Positions 58,266-63,630 of a stretch of 64,000 nt of DNA are shown here, in pieces. The notes under the pieces were generated by a model. That model was not told where the DNA came from, made no database searches, and saw nothing but the letters and a program-made list of their open reading frames with translations. Source of the DNA: Thermodesulfobium narugense DSM 14796. Lineage in GTDB: Bacteria > Thermodesulfobiota > Thermodesulfobiia > Thermodesulfobiales > Thermodesulfobiaceae. The stretch covers positions 1,809,421 to 1,873,420 of the forward strand of contig NC_015499.1 in NCBI RefSeq assembly GCF_000212395.1, read 5' to 3'. The position numbers were made by a program, and so were the translations under genes. Numbering within the stretch: position 1 is the first letter of the stretch; each line of letters begins with the position of its first letter.

Positions 58266-58856
58266 TCAAGTAGATTTTGAAGTAAGAGTCTTTTCAACCA
58301 TATCACAAATTATGTGTCCGATCATAATATGACACTCCTGTATTCTTGGCACTTTTTTTGATGGGACGCTTATACAAATATCAGATAGTTTTTCCATTTC
58401 GTTGCCAGTCATACCTGTAAGTGAAATTGTGCTTATATGATAAAGTTGAGCAATTCTTAAAGCCTTTATTAAATTCTTAGAATTTCCACTTGTTGAAATT
58501 GCAAAAAAGACGTCGCCCATCTCACCCAGTGCCTCAATCTGTCTTGCAAAAACGCTTTCATATCCAAAATCATTTGAAACAGCAGTAATAATTGAAGTGT
58601 CAGTAGTAAGAGCTATAGCTCTTAGTGCTTTTCTTTCCAATAAGAATCTTCCAACAAACTCTGCTGCAATATGCTGAGAATCAGCAGCACTACCGCCATT
58701 TCCAGCAATCAAAAGTTTTTTCCCAGATCTTAGCGCTGCAGATATAACTTTAACGCTCATTTTAACAGTTTCTAAAAATTTATCATCAGAAAGCAGTCTA
58801 TTTTTTAGCTCCAGCGATTCAGATATTGCTTTTTTAATTTCATCTTTTACAATCAT
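58266..58856 (-). CDS. gmhA: Phosphoheptose isomerase (GmhA-like SIS protein)
   Basis: A 196-residue SIS-domain enzyme that isomerises sedoheptulose 7-phosphate for lipopolysaccharide heptose. Motifs G-N-G-G-S-A-A-D-S-Q-H-I-A-A-E-F-V-G-R-F and S-T-S-G-N-S-K-N are as in GmhA. The start overlaps the glycosyltransferase stop by 4 nt. Together they point to surface glycan synthesis. Confidence 0.94.
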   Translation of the reverse strand: MIVKDEIKKAISESLELKNRLLSDDKFLETVKMSVKVISAALRSGKKLLIAGNGGSAADSQHIAAEFVGRFLLERKALRAIALTTDTSIITAVSNDFGYESVFARQIEALGEMGDVFFAISTSGNSKNLIKALRIAQLYHISTISLTGMTGNEMEKLSDICISVPSKKVPRIQECHIMIGHIICDMVEKTLTSKST

Positions 58857-61240
58857 TTACTTTCTCTTTCAAAAAAGTTGAGCATCTCTTTGGAAAAGTT
58901 TTGGACGGAAAACTTTTCCATCACAAAAGCTCTTGCCCTTTCTCCAAGTTCTCTAGCAAAATCTCTATCTTTAGCCAATTTAATCATAGCACTATACAAC
59001 TCATCTTCATCAGGGAGCGCCCATTCCCAATCTGGGTTATATCCTGAATTATTCTGACCTATTTTTTCAAACTTATAGCTTAAAAGTATGGAATTATCTT
59101 TATTCATAAACTCAAGATTCCCACCATACGCTGTAGCTATAACTGGCTTTCCAAGCCACATAGCCTCTATTAAAGGAAGAGCCATACCTTCACAGCTGTG
59201 AGGCGAAACATACGCATCAGCAGCATTTAATATTGTAATGTAACCATCTCTATTTGTAGTTTCGTCTACAAACACAACATTGTCAATAATATCCAATTCT
59301 TTAATGTATTTTGTAAGTTTTACTTGATTTTCAGAATATTTTGCAGCCTGAAAAGTCTTAAAAATTAGATATACATCGCTACATTCTCTTACAACTCTCG
59401 AGAGAGCCTTCAGAAGCAAAAACGGCCTTTTTCTGTCAAAATCTCTGAAAAAGTCTAAAATAAACATGAAAACAAATGAATCATAAAAACCAAAGGTTGC
59501 TCGAAGATTCTTTCTGTGTTGTAATATTCTCCAATCGTAAGTGAATGGATATGGGAATTTATATACTTTTTCTCCTCCAGCTTTTATTAAAGCACCTTTT
59601 ACAAAATCCGAATAACACATAACTTCATCCACCAAAGAAAAAGCCCTTGGGTCATCAAAATATTTGTCAAATTCCCAATTCCAGATTGCAGACGTTCTGC
59701 CTCTAAAAATATTACTCGATATATCTTTAAGATAAGCCAAATCCTCTGAGTTAATGAAAAATATTGTGTTATTAAATGACAGATTATTAACATTAAAGCA
59801 TGCGATATTTTTAATCTCTTCTTCAGAAACTCTCAAATTTGAAGCAACGGGCAAAAAGAAAAGAGAACATGGAATGCCCAGTGAAGAGGCCTTTCTAAAA
59901 AAAGATCTCGCCTGAACTCCAAGTCCAATTTTTGATTCAAAAAACCCAACAATATTTATCCCAAAGGAACTATGTTCAATACGAGAAGTATAAGTGAGGT
60001 TGTAATTAACCCTTAAGATATCCTTCAATGCTGCCGTGTTTATTGTGCCCGTACTGGAAAAAGCTAAGTTTAAATCCTGCCTCGACTCGATCACACATCT
60101 CGCAAACCTGCTTATAGAACTATATTTTGGGTGTAGAAAGGAAAGTATTGCTCTTACGTTCTCACTGTCAGGTAAATATGGATTTCTAAATCTCTTAAAT
60201 ATTTCTTCTGAGTACCTCTTTCTTACTTCAAGAGGTACTCTTATTTTTGTTAATGGGAGGTATTCGAAATAATATGGCAATTCTTCAAACTTTCTTTTGT
60301 TCTGGAAAAAGTCTTTATTATAGTATTCATTTATTAACTTTACATATGATTTGTTTATTGATCCAAAAAAGCTCACATGATCGAACAAAAATAGGTCATC
60401 TAAATAAAATCCACTAAATTCAAAAAGTGACAATTTCCTAAGTTGATTTTTTCTGTTTACAAAATAACTAGATTCTTTAAATACGATATCTTCTTTTTTA
60501 ACGTTATAAAAAGTCAAAGTATACTGCAAATCGTCTAGCTCAAGATATTTAAGCTTTGAAATCTCTTTCTTATGGAAATAGGAAATATTAGCTTCGGTGT
60601 TTTTTAAGGCATATATTGATTCTTTGAAACGAATTACGTCATAATCGTCCAAAAGATCGTATAAGCCCCTTACGTCAGAAAGGCAAAAAATATTTTTCGA
60701 TAAGTACAAACTCTTCTTAAAGCCAACATAAGCAAAGTATTCGAAAACATACGGCAAAATCCAGTTTTTCGCTTCGTCCTTTGTGGATGTCCAAAGAACT
60801 TTATGCATATCTCTGCAGGAAATTTCTGACAAAAGCTCACACAAGAAAAAAAATTTAATGCCTTTAGATACTAACTCATTAAAGAGTCTAAACTCTCTAA
60901 TATCTTTTAAAAGGTCTACAACTACTACTACAAAATCAATTTCTGGATTATTTCTTAAAAAGCTATCCCTTAAATTAAGAGCGTAGTGCATCTCGTCTTT
61001 GTTAATTATAGTAAACGCAACATCTTTATGTTGAACAGGAATTTTAGGAGAGTAGTCAAAATTTATCTTAACAACTCTTAGATCTTGCCAGAAATCTTTT
61101 GCTTTAAAAATTTCATATTTTATCTTTTCTAAACCTTTACTTAACGAAGTTGCAAAACCTTTTTCCTGATAATTTTTTAAAGATTTTCTAAATGAAATAT
61201 ATCTTGAAAGAGAACTTTTAAATAGAGTACCCTTAAACAT
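58853..61240 (-). CDS. Large two-part glycosyltransferase
   Basis: A 795-residue protein. The N-terminal part (about 60-330) shows a nucleotide-sugar-type pattern (D-F-V-V-V-V-V-D-L-L, S-L-Y-L-S-K-N-I-F) that may be a GT8-like or degenerate fold. The C-terminal part (about 430-790) is a GT4-type transferase with P-H-S-C-E-G-M-A-L-P-L-I-E-A-M and G-K-P-V-I-A-T-A-Y-G-G. Acceptor and donor are unknown. It starts 1 nt after the second selenoprotein gene and overlaps gmhA. Flagellin or outer-membrane glycan targets are both possible. Confidence 0.82.
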   Translation of the reverse strand: MFKGTLFKSSLSRYISFRKSLKNYQEKGFATSLSKGLEKIKYEIFKAKDFWQDLRVVKINFDYSPKIPVQHKDVAFTIINKDEMHYALNLRDSFLRNNPEIDFVVVVVDLLKDIREFRLFNELVSKGIKFFFLCELLSEISCRDMHKVLWTSTKDEAKNWILPYVFEYFAYVGFKKSLYLSKNIFCLSDVRGLYDLLDDYDVIRFKESIYALKNTEANISYFHKKEISKLKYLELDDLQYTLTFYNVKKEDIVFKESSYFVNRKNQLRKLSLFEFSGFYLDDLFLFDHVSFFGSINKSYVKLINEYYNKDFFQNKRKFEELPYYFEYLPLTKIRVPLEVRKRYSEEIFKRFRNPYLPDSENVRAILSFLHPKYSSISRFARCVIESRQDLNLAFSSTGTINTAALKDILRVNYNLTYTSRIEHSSFGINIVGFFESKIGLGVQARSFFRKASSLGIPCSLFFLPVASNLRVSEEEIKNIACFNVNNLSFNNTIFFINSEDLAYLKDISSNIFRGRTSAIWNWEFDKYFDDPRAFSLVDEVMCYSDFVKGALIKAGGEKVYKFPYPFTYDWRILQHRKNLRATFGFYDSFVFMFILDFFRDFDRKRPFLLLKALSRVVRECSDVYLIFKTFQAAKYSENQVKLTKYIKELDIIDNVVFVDETTNRDGYITILNAADAYVSPHSCEGMALPLIEAMWLGKPVIATAYGGNLEFMNKDNSILLSYKFEKIGQNNSGYNPDWEWALPDEDELYSAMIKLAKDRDFARELGERARAFVMEKFSVQNFSKEMLNFFERESK

Positions 61241-61241
61241 A

Positions 61242-61517
61242 TCAAGCTACCACTATAAGTTCTTTGAAAAATAAAAATTTTTTCAAACCAATTCTTGTCT
61301 TATTCTTAAGGTTCAACTCCTTTGGTATATAAATTTCTATTCCCTCCTGTTCAAAAACTTTATAGGCTATACCTTCAAGTGGTTCTCCCGCTCTAACTGA
61401 GGGAGGCAAAGGAACCCTACTTCAAGAAAAACATGATGAAGCATTTATAAAAAAAATCTTTGAACCCTTTGATTTTATATATTCTTTAGCTTCTTTATCA
61501 AATTCAAATTTAGGCAT
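61242..61517 (-). CDS. HesB-like/CC-motif selenoprotein, second of a tandem pair (in-frame TGA)
   Basis: Minus-strand frame of 91 residues from ATG 61517 to TGA 61242-61244, with one internal TGA at 61422-61424 (codon 32). Coding character continues past it. Around the TGA the protein reads S-S-C-F-S-U-S-R, a C-x-x-U redox motif. Then come P-P-S-V-R-A-G-E-P, G-I-E-I-Y-I-P-K-E-L and L-K-K-F-L-F-F-K, a pattern of the HesB-like selenoprotein type. The start overlaps the end of the first paralogue by 8 nt, and GGAGG lies 5 nt upstream of the ATG. The glycosyltransferase starts 1 nt later. Without recoding it would be a 31-residue stub. Function is unknown. Confidence 0.85.
61383..61407 (-). promoter_or_regulatory. 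Candidate bacterial SECIS hairpin of the second selenoprotein gene
   Basis: Just downstream of the internal TGA in the mRNA, C-T-C-C-C (61405-61401) can pair with G-G-G-A-G (61389-61385). The inner stem CTC/GAG encloses loop AGTTA (61398-61394). The loop begins 23 nt after the TGA, within the usual range for bacterial SECIS elements. Confidence 0.6.
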
Positions 61518-61812
61518 CTTTACCTCCATCTAAAGCATATATAAAAATATATTCCTTGCCATAAGAGCTTCTCTTTGCATCGACCACTAGATCTTTGTCG
61601 TAAGAAAAATTTTTCGGTATATAAACTACAATATCATTAAAATACATACAAACATACTTATCAAATTCTTTCTTAGGTCTTCCCCATCTAACTGATGGGA
61701 TTCCTGAACCAGTTCCTCAAGTGCTACACAACAAATCCCTCGATGGCAAGATATATATTTCTTTGCCGCTACTTTCAATTAGTTTTATTGCCTTTTTAGT
61801 TAAAGATATCAT
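61510..61812 (-). CDS. HesB-like/CC-motif selenoprotein, first of a tandem pair (in-frame TGA)
   Basis: Minus-strand frame of 100 residues from ATG 61812 to TAA 61510-61512, broken only by a TGA at 61717-61719 (codon 32). The motif is L-C-S-T-U-G-T-G, so Cys29 and Sec32 form C-x-x-U at the same positions as in its neighbour. Homology continues with I-P-S-V-R-W-G-R-P and I-V-V-Y-I-P-K-N-F. The N-terminus (S-L-T-K-K-A-I-K-L-I) resembles HesB/IscA-type proteins. The ATG lacks a close ribosome-binding site: AGGAG is 22 nt upstream and sits before a two-codon ATG-ATT-TAA, so initiation may be unusual. A double nonsense mutation in both genes is a far less likely explanation. Confidence 0.85.
61683..61699 (-). 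promoter_or_regulatory. Candidate bacterial SECIS hairpin of the first selenoprotein gene
   Basis: C-C-C-A-T-C pairs perfectly with G-A-T-G-G-G around the loop AGTTA. The loop starts 23 nt after the internal TGA, the same distance and the same loop as in the second gene. The loop contains GU, a common feature of bacterial SECIS loops. Confidence 0.65.
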
Positions 61813-61946
61813 TATATATATTAAATCATATTAGCTCCTAAGAGTGAAGATCCAAAAAATATTGTTTACACAAACTTCTACACAAATTTAAAAAAATAAG
61901 ATAGTATTTATAAAGTGAGTTAGTAAATAAAATTTTTGGAGGAATT

Positions 61947-62816
61947 ATGTCATTAACCAATTACAAAGAAAAGCTACAAAATGCCGTTGACTTAGTCAAC
62001 AAAAACGAGCTCGACCAAGGAAGGGAAGTGTTACAAGAATTAATTGATGAGCTTTATGAAAGTCAAACAAACGAAGAAAAAGACATTCTTGCAACTGCAC
62101 TGGATATACGAAGTCTTATTAGAGCCTATGGCAGAGATTTTGAAGGTTCAATGAAAGATCTTGATGAATCGATTTCTCTTAGAAGGTTTCTTTTTAGCGA
62201 AAATTTTAGTAAAAATCAGGAAGATATTGCTCGGTTATTAACGCACAAGGGAATAAACTTAGGACAGATGGGCAAGCTTGATGAAGCCCTTTCTCAAATC
62301 AAAGAAGCAATTAAGTTATATGAAGAATGCTACAAAAATGGCTCTCTTTCCAATGCCGGACTCTATACTCATGCTCTAAATCAGCTTGCAATTACACAAA
62401 AAAATATGAACAATTTTGAATCTTCTTTTGAAGCCTTTAACAAGGCCATAGATATTTTAGAAAAAGAAACAAAAGTTGACAGTTCTCTTAACTTAGACCT
62501 TGCTATAACTTATATGAACAGAGGTATAAACAACGTAGAGGTAGCAAAAACTCAAGATTCAATTGACGATTTCAGAAAAAGTATCGATATTGTTATAGAT
62601 TCTTTAAAAGAAAGGCCAGAACTTGTTGGACTTTACTCGAGATTAGTCTATTATTCCATTCTCTCGATGGCAAGATCAGGCCTTATATTGCCAGATAAGA
62701 TGGAAAAATTTAAAACAGAATCAGAATACGTGTTTAATACGTATGGCATGACTGAGGAAGCAGAATTTTGGATGACTAAAATCGGTGAATTATTTGCTCC
62801 ACCACAAAGTTCCTGA
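61947..62816 (+). CDS. Tetratricopeptide-repeat protein
   Basis: A 289-residue soluble helical protein with several TPR units (for example G-K-L-D-E-A-L-S-Q-I-K-E-A-I-K-L-Y near 110-130, and S-S-F-E-A-F-N-K-A-I-D-I-L near 165-180). TPRs mediate protein contacts. No enzyme domain or signal peptide is seen, so the partner is unknown. GGAGG lies upstream of the ATG. It is transcribed divergently from the selenoprotein operon with a 134-nt gap. Confidence 0.88.
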   Translation: MSLTNYKEKLQNAVDLVNKNELDQGREVLQELIDELYESQTNEEKDILATALDIRSLIRAYGRDFEGSMKDLDESISLRRFLFSENFSKNQEDIARLLTHKGINLGQMGKLDEALSQIKEAIKLYEECYKNGSLSNAGLYTHALNQLAITQKNMNNFESSFEAFNKAIDILEKETKVDSSLNLDLAITYMNRGINNVEVAKTQDSIDDFRKSIDIVIDSLKERPELVGLYSRLVYYSILSMARSGLILPDKMEKFKTESEYVFNTYGMTEEAEFWMTKIGELFAPPQSS

Positions 62817-62955: not shown

Positions 62956-63630
62956 ATGTGCAATGTGTGCAGCAGAAGATCTTTTATTAAAAAACTTATT
63001 GGTAGCTTTGTTGCTTTCAAGTTGTTTTCAATTAGCTCAGATTCACTTGCGGATTCATCTAGCGAGGTGTGGGGTCAATGCCCAAAAGGGCTTCAATATG
63101 ACCCATATCCTGGCAAATGCTCAAGATACATTGACACAAACAACGATGGCTACTGTGACTATTCAGAGCCACCTCCAAAATCTACATCCAATATAAATCC
63201 ATCTTATTCACCCAATACAGACGAAAACTTTAAAAGCACACAACCATTGTTTGGTGACGACATAGCTGAAGCAGCAAACAGAGAAAGAAGACGCTCAATT
63301 ATTGAAAGTTATAATACAGGAACACTGTCCATATTAGCAATTCTTTTTTCCTTAGTATCTAGCTTTTTAGTACAGAAGAAAATAATAAAAAAACAAACAC
63401 TTCTAAAAATATGTAACTTTGTCTTAGCAATATCTTTTGTAATATCTGCAACTCTTGGAATGATCCTTTCACTTAAATACGATGGTCTTATAAGCCTTCT
63501 TTTACCGTCCTGGGTTTTGTTTTTGCACGTAGAATTTGGGATAGTCTTTTGTGTTTTTGCGATTCTACATTTAGTTCTAAATTGGAAATCAATGCTTTGC
63601 TTGTTTAATCTTAATGGTAAAAAAAATTAG
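62956..63630 (+). CDS. Tat-exported membrane protein with EF-hand-like motif and cytochrome b-like (DUF4405-type) end
   Basis: A 224-residue protein. The N-terminal S-R-R-S-F-I-K-K plus hydrophobic stretch is a Tat-type signal. A Cys-rich segment (about 40-70) follows: C-P-K-G-L-x-Y-D-P-Y-P-G-K-C and D-T-N-N-D-G-Y-C-D, which looks like a calcium-binding loop. Three membrane helices (about 117-205) end in H-V-E-F-G and H-L-V-L-N-W, histidines placed as in DUF4405/b-heme proteins. A role in membrane electron transfer is inferred. The ATG at 62956 follows GGAGG. Confidence 0.7.
   Translation: MCNVCSRRSFIKKLIGSFVAFKLFSISSDSLADSSSEVWGQCPKGLQYDPYPGKCSRYIDTNNDGYCDYSEPPPKSTSNINPSYSPNTDENFKSTQPLFGDDIAEAANRERRRSIIESYNTGTLSILAILFSLVSSFLVQKKIIKKQTLLKICNFVLAISFVISATLGMILSLKYDGLISLLLPSWVLFLHVEFGIVFCVFAILHLVLNWKSMLCLFNLNGKKN

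Follow-up and report, generated by a model that had tools for sequence, protein, structure and literature searches.

The closest described relatives of the locus analysed here belong to the NCBIfam family NF041239, 'CC/Se motif family (seleno)protein'. In the part available, a 2026 review (PMC13188914) lists this family with the motif CxxU as a 'hypothetical protein predicted in Moorella thermoacetica', and the available part of PMC9312934 also lists the Moorella hypothetical protein; neither text, to that extent, assigns the family a function. The same part of the review lists a separate HesB-like family, TIGR01911, with the motif UxGP. The word 'Moorella' is absent from the main text, as available, of PMC5029168, which the review cites for the family, and of PMC2398784. 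For the genus of the present organism, the accessible part of the deep-Sep report (PMC12013277) counts, with no names given, four known selenoprotein genes for one Thermodesulfobium genome. The kind of selenoprotein described below is therefore already known, since NF041239 with its CxxU motif is listed in both PMC13188914 and PMC9312934, in the parts available. No earlier report of the tandem gene pair, or of a link between NF041239 and the HesB fold, was found in the literature covered, which consists of parts of main texts.

The pair lies near one end of the window, the whole 64,000-nucleotide stretch of Thermodesulfobium narugense DNA that was analysed. We put at roughly 0.8 the probability, covering identity and fold together, that genes A and B are genuine co-directional overlapping selenoproteins, each a member or relative of NF041239 with a predicted IscA/HesB fold. 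Gene B is a new member, and gene A a divergent relative, of an already published selenoprotein family, arranged in overlapping tandem. The features of the locus are as follows.

58853..61240, minus strand: glycosyltransferase gene (PF00534, PF13692), the next gene of the run
61242..61517, minus strand: gene B, predicted 91-aa selenoprotein (CFSU), NF041239 member, TGA stop (from the frame, the profile and conservation of the TGA at codon 32)
61385..61405, minus strand: candidate weak bSECIS hairpin of gene B, loop AGUUA, distance from the UGA as in gene A, -6.6 kcal/mol (hairpin search)
61422..61424, minus strand: UGA codon 32 of gene B, predicted Sec (frame and conservation)
61510..61812, minus strand: gene A, predicted 100-aa selenoprotein (CSTU), divergent NF041239 relative, TAA stop (from the frame, the profile and conservation of the TGA at codon 32)
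61522..61527, minus strand: Shine-Dalgarno-like GGAGGT before the gene B ATG at 61517 (upstream sequence)
61682..61700, minus strand: candidate bSECIS hairpin of gene A, 7 bp, -9.0 kcal/mol, its AGUUA loop beginning 23 nt past the UGA (hairpin search)
61717..61719, minus strand: UGA codon 32 of gene A, predicted Sec (frame and conservation)

Both frames of 61242-61812 are read from the minus strand, and each is open save for one TGA. Gene A runs from an ATG at 61812 to a TAA stop ending at 61510, with the TGA at codon 32 and a product of 100 aa (MISLTKKAIKLIESSGKEIYILPSRDLLCSTU-GTGSGIPSVRWGRP...); gene B runs from the ATG at 61517 to 61242, with its TGA likewise at codon 32, a TGA stop at 61244-61242, and a product of 91 aa (MPKFEFDKEAKEYIKSKGSKIFFINASSCFSU-SRVPLPPSVRAGEP...). 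The motif C29-x-x-U32 is present in both proteins, which are 30% identical in an alignment that spans both sides of the TGA and have C29, residue 32, PSVR, G44 and P46 in common. With the gene B start taken at 61517, the two genes overlap by 8 nt (61510-61517); the sequence upstream of this ATG is GGAGGTAAAG, and use of a second ATG in frame, at 61529, would lengthen the product by 4 residues. No table-11 ORF of at least 60 aa is listed in 61242-61812. The sequence-only reading, which gave no strand, had described two frames intact but for a TGA as codon 32, within a C-x-x-U motif (Cys29, Sec32), proteins that align on either side of that TGA, a first gene ending inside the start of the second, and a stretch that standard gene calling would leave empty or turn into two stubs. 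The frames, the 30% identity and the 8-nt overlap bear out this description, and its last point holds at the level of table-11 ORFs 60 aa or longer, none of which is listed there.

Profile searches separate the two genes. Gene B matches NF041239 over nearly its full length at 59.5 bits (54.4 in a second scan), above the cut-off of 40, whereas gene A reaches 32.2 bits (E 8.7e-8; 28.3 in the second scan) and falls below that curated cut-off. On these scores gene B is a member of the family and gene A a relative but no formal member; automatic annotation could miss paralogue A or call it a stub. The earlier assignment of the pair to a 'CC-motif type' is upheld in the form of NF041239 with its CxxU (PMC13188914, in the part available), gene A lying under the curated cut-off. 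What the pair shares with the described family is the CxxU motif, a length of about 90-100 aa and Sec or Cys at a matching column; it differs in the 32.2 bits of gene A against the required 40, in carrying two Sec copies that overlap in tandem, and in having two further relatives in the same genome. Pfam gives nothing over cut-off for either gene, and a single weak match, YcxB (E 0.019), for gene A.

Matches at E 1e-3 or better occur in 7 of the 386 sampled genomes, namely the 4 of the genus and 3 others. Searches in two other phyla gave a match in 4 of 9 and in 3 of 25 genomes, counts that include G171 and G237 of the 386-genome sample. The plasmids searched gave no match, and no relative is found among the 37 pattern matches in viral contigs. 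One candidate, L037 from a Sorangium MAG, was discarded as due to chance: a stop closes its frame shortly beyond the region of the match, and a different frame seems to be the coding one. The T. narugense genome holds four relatives over E 1e-3, which are A, B, L022 and L033. L022 (1498-1785, plus strand; G000:C1:1155437-1155712), a single-Cys, TGA-free protein encoded just before a tRNA-like match, is the best family scorer in the genome (89.7 bits) and occurs in 4/4 genus genomes. L033 (1375-1719, minus strand; G000:C1:1530165-1530380) is a divergent, longer relative of the Sec type with the motif KYCGAU and an in-frame TGA, scores below the cut-off (24.8 bits) and occurs in 3/4 genus genomes. 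Its neighbours are presumably a universal-stress-like gene on one side and phoU/pstB-like genes on the other.

Alignment of the family places Cys or Sec at the Sec column in 13 of 13 rows, an outcome favoured by the writing of U as C. The alignment comprises 13 of 18 members identified by that stage and omits the A, B and C proteins of G002, the B protein of G003 and the D protein of G001. The sequence-only reading had asked for a search for homologues with Cys at codon 32 and had named homologues lacking Cys or Sec there as evidence against it; no such row appears in the alignment. Spacing counted by hand agrees in part: the next Pro lies 7 residues on from U32 in A and B, and likewise 7 from the sole Cys of the G237 protein, while the printed sequences give 8 for the L022 type and 9 for G178. 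Cys29 is not universal, for only one Cys occurs in this region in proteins of the L022, L038 and L039 types, and the motif of L040, L053 and L054 is CxU.

The machinery for selenocysteine is complete in the T. narugense genome, a single contig of 1,898,865 bases. A tRNA-Sec with anticodon TCA scores 74.3 bits, and profile searches recover selB (366.7 bits), selA (531.3) and selD (323.4), all over their cut-offs. The sequence-only reading had called for a check of selA, selB, selC and selD, and selA, selB, selD and tRNA-Sec(TCA) are all found. Together with the occupation of the residue-32 column by Cys or Sec in the aligned homologues, this supports its claim of tandem selenoproteins, and neither of the outcomes that it had named as contrary is observed. 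Ribosomes would decode UGA-32 of both genes as Sec by way of the cell's own SelA, SelB, SelD and tRNA-Sec.

The recoding signal itself is less uniform. The published rule for a bSECIS (PMC13188914, legend to Fig 2, in the part available) is a loop of 3-9 nt with G in one of its first two positions, 16-37 nt after the UGA, and an MFE of -7.5 kcal/mol or lower; our hairpin search is built so that the loop and spacing hold by construction, and its energies are those of the hairpin only. On such hairpin-only energies the published limit is reached by the gene A hairpin in 2 of 4 genomes and by the gene B hairpin in 0 of 4. The same rule applied to 1200 sampled TGAs of the window yields a hairpin of -9 or better at 5 of them and one reaching -7.5 at 11. 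Longer folds around the two UGAs show no gain in stability over shuffled sequence (z 0.31 and 0.87). The Ser TCA and Val GTT codons that span the loop are unchanged in 8/8 sequences, an invariance that is consistent with constraint on the RNA but could also have arisen by chance. Among the relatives from another phylum, NF041239-family genes with a TGA are found in 4 of 9 genomes, and in the three of these four that were read (L040, L053 and L054, with L055 outside) a clean hairpin, GGAGGU-GGUC-ACCUCC, lies 17 nt downstream of the UGA. SECIS support for the T. narugense pair is thus partial, being fair in gene A and weak in gene B.

Structure prediction points to the A-type carriers. AlphaFold2 models built on four-sequence alignments have a mean pLDDT of 76.3 for A, whose five models range from 76.3 to 37.9, and of 81.3 for B; the Sec loop is of low confidence, with pLDDT below 50 at residues 26-36 of A and 28-30 of B. 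In a Foldseek search with the A model IscA and SufA rank first, and the top four entries all come from 1x0g and 2d2a, with E between 3.3e-3 and 1.2e-2 and a probability of 0.98-1.00; no match has E below 1e-3. VIA-align against IscA (1r94) gives Z 9.1, rmsd 3.6 and 89 aligned residues for A, and Z 8.3, rmsd 3.6 and 84 aligned residues for B. Ranks 1-5 are IscA, SufA or DsrR for A and likewise for B; for B, Z 8 is reached by 1 of 294 chains, and the tool warns that a Z below 8 may be a mere common arrangement. Profile-profile comparison with a 9-sequence PF01521 set, run with no negative control, gives a probability of 71.7% (pair E 3.5e-5), or 85.4% when the odd sequence L050 is omitted. A sequence search of the PDB with the A2 profile returned only 5kca (E 9.9e-5), a cerebellin/glutamate-receptor chain in which no stretch passes alone, and this was rejected as chance. 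Genes A and B are predicted from these models to resemble A-type carriers (IscA/HesB) in fold.

Comparison with each of the carrier-like systems qualifies this likeness. For IscA, SufA and ErpA (PF01521) the likeness consists of the predicted fold and the best structural matches; no match of A or B to PF01521 appears up to E 10 in a scan whose filters drop most weak matches. A-type carriers have three ligand Cys. The C-terminal CGCG is present in 8 of 9 PF01521 rows, whereas CGC is absent from all 13 rows of the A/B family, and in A and B an additional Cys stands three positions ahead of the loop residue. In the joint alignment Sec32 coincides with, or lies close to, the conserved Cys that comes first in IscA-type proteins, a correspondence that is aligned, not proven. 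DsrR (2k4z) is among the top VIA-align matches (Z 8.2 for A, 7.7 for B), but its identity to A and B is 12-13%; we take it to be an A-type-like protein that lacks the cluster-ligand cysteines and has no Sec. TIGR01911 is HesB-like by name, as A and B are by predicted fold, but its motif is UxGP (PMC13188914, in the part available) rather than the CxxU of A and B, and hmmscan, whose filters drop most weak matches, finds no match for either protein up to E 10. Membership of TIGR01911 is rejected on these two grounds. The earlier label 'HesB-like' survives, then, as a predicted fold with matches to IscA, SufA and DsrR, and fails as family membership. The loose relative L050 reaches 36.7 bits against TIGR01911, below the cut-off of 66.35, and scores higher on general IscA models; the Cys of its CxGP aligns near the Sec column of A and B, which is weak evidence of a connection.

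Whether the open frames beyond codon 32 are more than chance is decided by conservation. Were the TGAs real stops, A and B would be decayed or truncated genes; UGA does serve as a normal stop here, in that gene B ends in TGA, the SECIS hairpins are weak in some orthologues, and openness of a single frame past a TGA is no rarity, given that 59 or more open codons follow 20 of the 184 TGAs in the window that have 31 or more open codons before them. Because of this last count, openness of the frame past the TGA is weak evidence alone. However, gene A, gene B and both codon-32 TGAs are kept in 4 of the 4 genus genomes searched, T. narugense included, and the protein beyond the TGA is under constraint: post-TGA dN/dS is 0.12-0.28 for gene A and 0-0.10 for gene B (6 pairs each), with Fisher p of 8e-4 and 4e-3 for gene A and 8e-11 and 6e-10 for gene B in the two pairs tested. 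Chance is ruled out because genes and TGAs are conserved with protein constraint after the TGA, and pseudogenes are rejected for the purifying selection past the TGA in both genes; the same values confirm the earlier claim that conserved protein is encoded downstream of it. A known family with Sec at that place and the complete Sec machinery also stand against decay, which is hardly credible. An alternative genetic code is likewise rejected, for the terminal TGA of gene B is replaced by TAA in one relative (G003) and is therefore a true stop. A different use of the codon would make UGA-32 a selenium gate, at which A and B stop when selenium is lacking, the coupled start of the glycosyltransferase is under-used and the operon senses selenium. 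The 8-nt overlap, the single base between the gene B stop and the glycosyltransferase ATG, and a gene order (TPR / A-B-glycosyltransferase-SIS-FliK) kept in 3 of the 3 relatives examined are in its favour. The kept order also counts towards A and B being genuine genes. Yet gene B has a strong Shine-Dalgarno of its own, which weakens its coupling to A, and the constraint on the protein after the UGA argues that the A and B products themselves matter. A single transcript for the run is putative, and the gate, for which the gene spacing speaks, is possible though very unlikely.

Given selenoproteins, the choice of role lies between metal handling and redox chemistry. Sec32 would be part of a flexible loop and occupy the column where single-Cys homologues have their Cys, with Cys29 as an added neighbour and the C-terminal CGC gone; the thiolate/selenolate pair Cys29-Sec32 could then serve to bind a soft metal or an Fe-S/sulfur species, or to pass it on. 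Such binding or transfer is the role we tentatively favour, at somewhat short of even odds. In the competing account A and B are thiol/selenol oxidoreductases in which Cys29 and Sec32 cycle between a selenenylsulfide and the reduced form, a cycle also put forward for other CxxU proteins, the HesB-like fold being a mere scaffold. The CxxU of both genes is kept in 4/4 genus genomes searched, CxxU/UxxC is read as redox-related in the available part of PMC13188914, and the C-terminal CGC of Fe-S carriers is missing, all of which suit an oxidoreductase; the structural matches listed are carrier-fold proteins (other folds outside the list being possible), and homologues with a single Cys (L022 type, L038, L039) or CxU (L040, L053, L054) do without the CxxU spacing. 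The oxidoreductase account is a serious contender, and binding of a metal or cluster is judged slightly likelier because of the fold; the two are close. The 'thiol/selenol redox or metal-handling' role proposed from the sequence is one that we still infer. A more specific version of the binding role, in which the genus uses a few small HesB-fold selenoproteins as selenolate Fe-S or metal carriers, with Sec as the first carrier Cys, Cys29 in place of the C-terminal pair and A and B as a heterodimer, is unlikely. A PF01521 search finds no classical A-type carrier in 4/4 genus genomes, but this absence is not distinctive since PF01521 is missing from 18 of the 25 genomes that it covered. For a family listed with no function, a predicted HesB/IscA fold with Sec aligned to a carrier Cys makes Fe-S or metal binding versus redox concretely testable.

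Several observations concern the surroundings of A, B and their relatives. Promoter-like sites number 11 against 15.9 in shuffles and terminator-like sites 2 against 1.9, which is no excess, and an Rfam search of 60500-62500 gave one match below the gathering score, taken as chance. Elsewhere in the genome, selD carries an in-frame TGA of its own, and so does one match of the formate dehydrogenase alpha type (L062, G000:C1:1181448-1182194, minus strand), which lies ~5 kb from a TGA-free one. In the G171 genome a TGA-bearing family member (L041, 5845-6105, plus strand) lies between two apparently similar membrane-protein genes, and G386-G388, relatives of G171, also have a member with one TGA. 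The single-Cys member of the G237 genome (L043, 6880-7158, plus strand) begins 15 bases downstream of a gene for 600 aa whose product presumably resembles the CstA transporter. At 62956-63630 of the window, plus strand, a 224-aa protein with no Pfam match at E 1e-3 has two Cys near its start (MCNVC) and is 74-79% identical in 3 of the 3 relatives examined.
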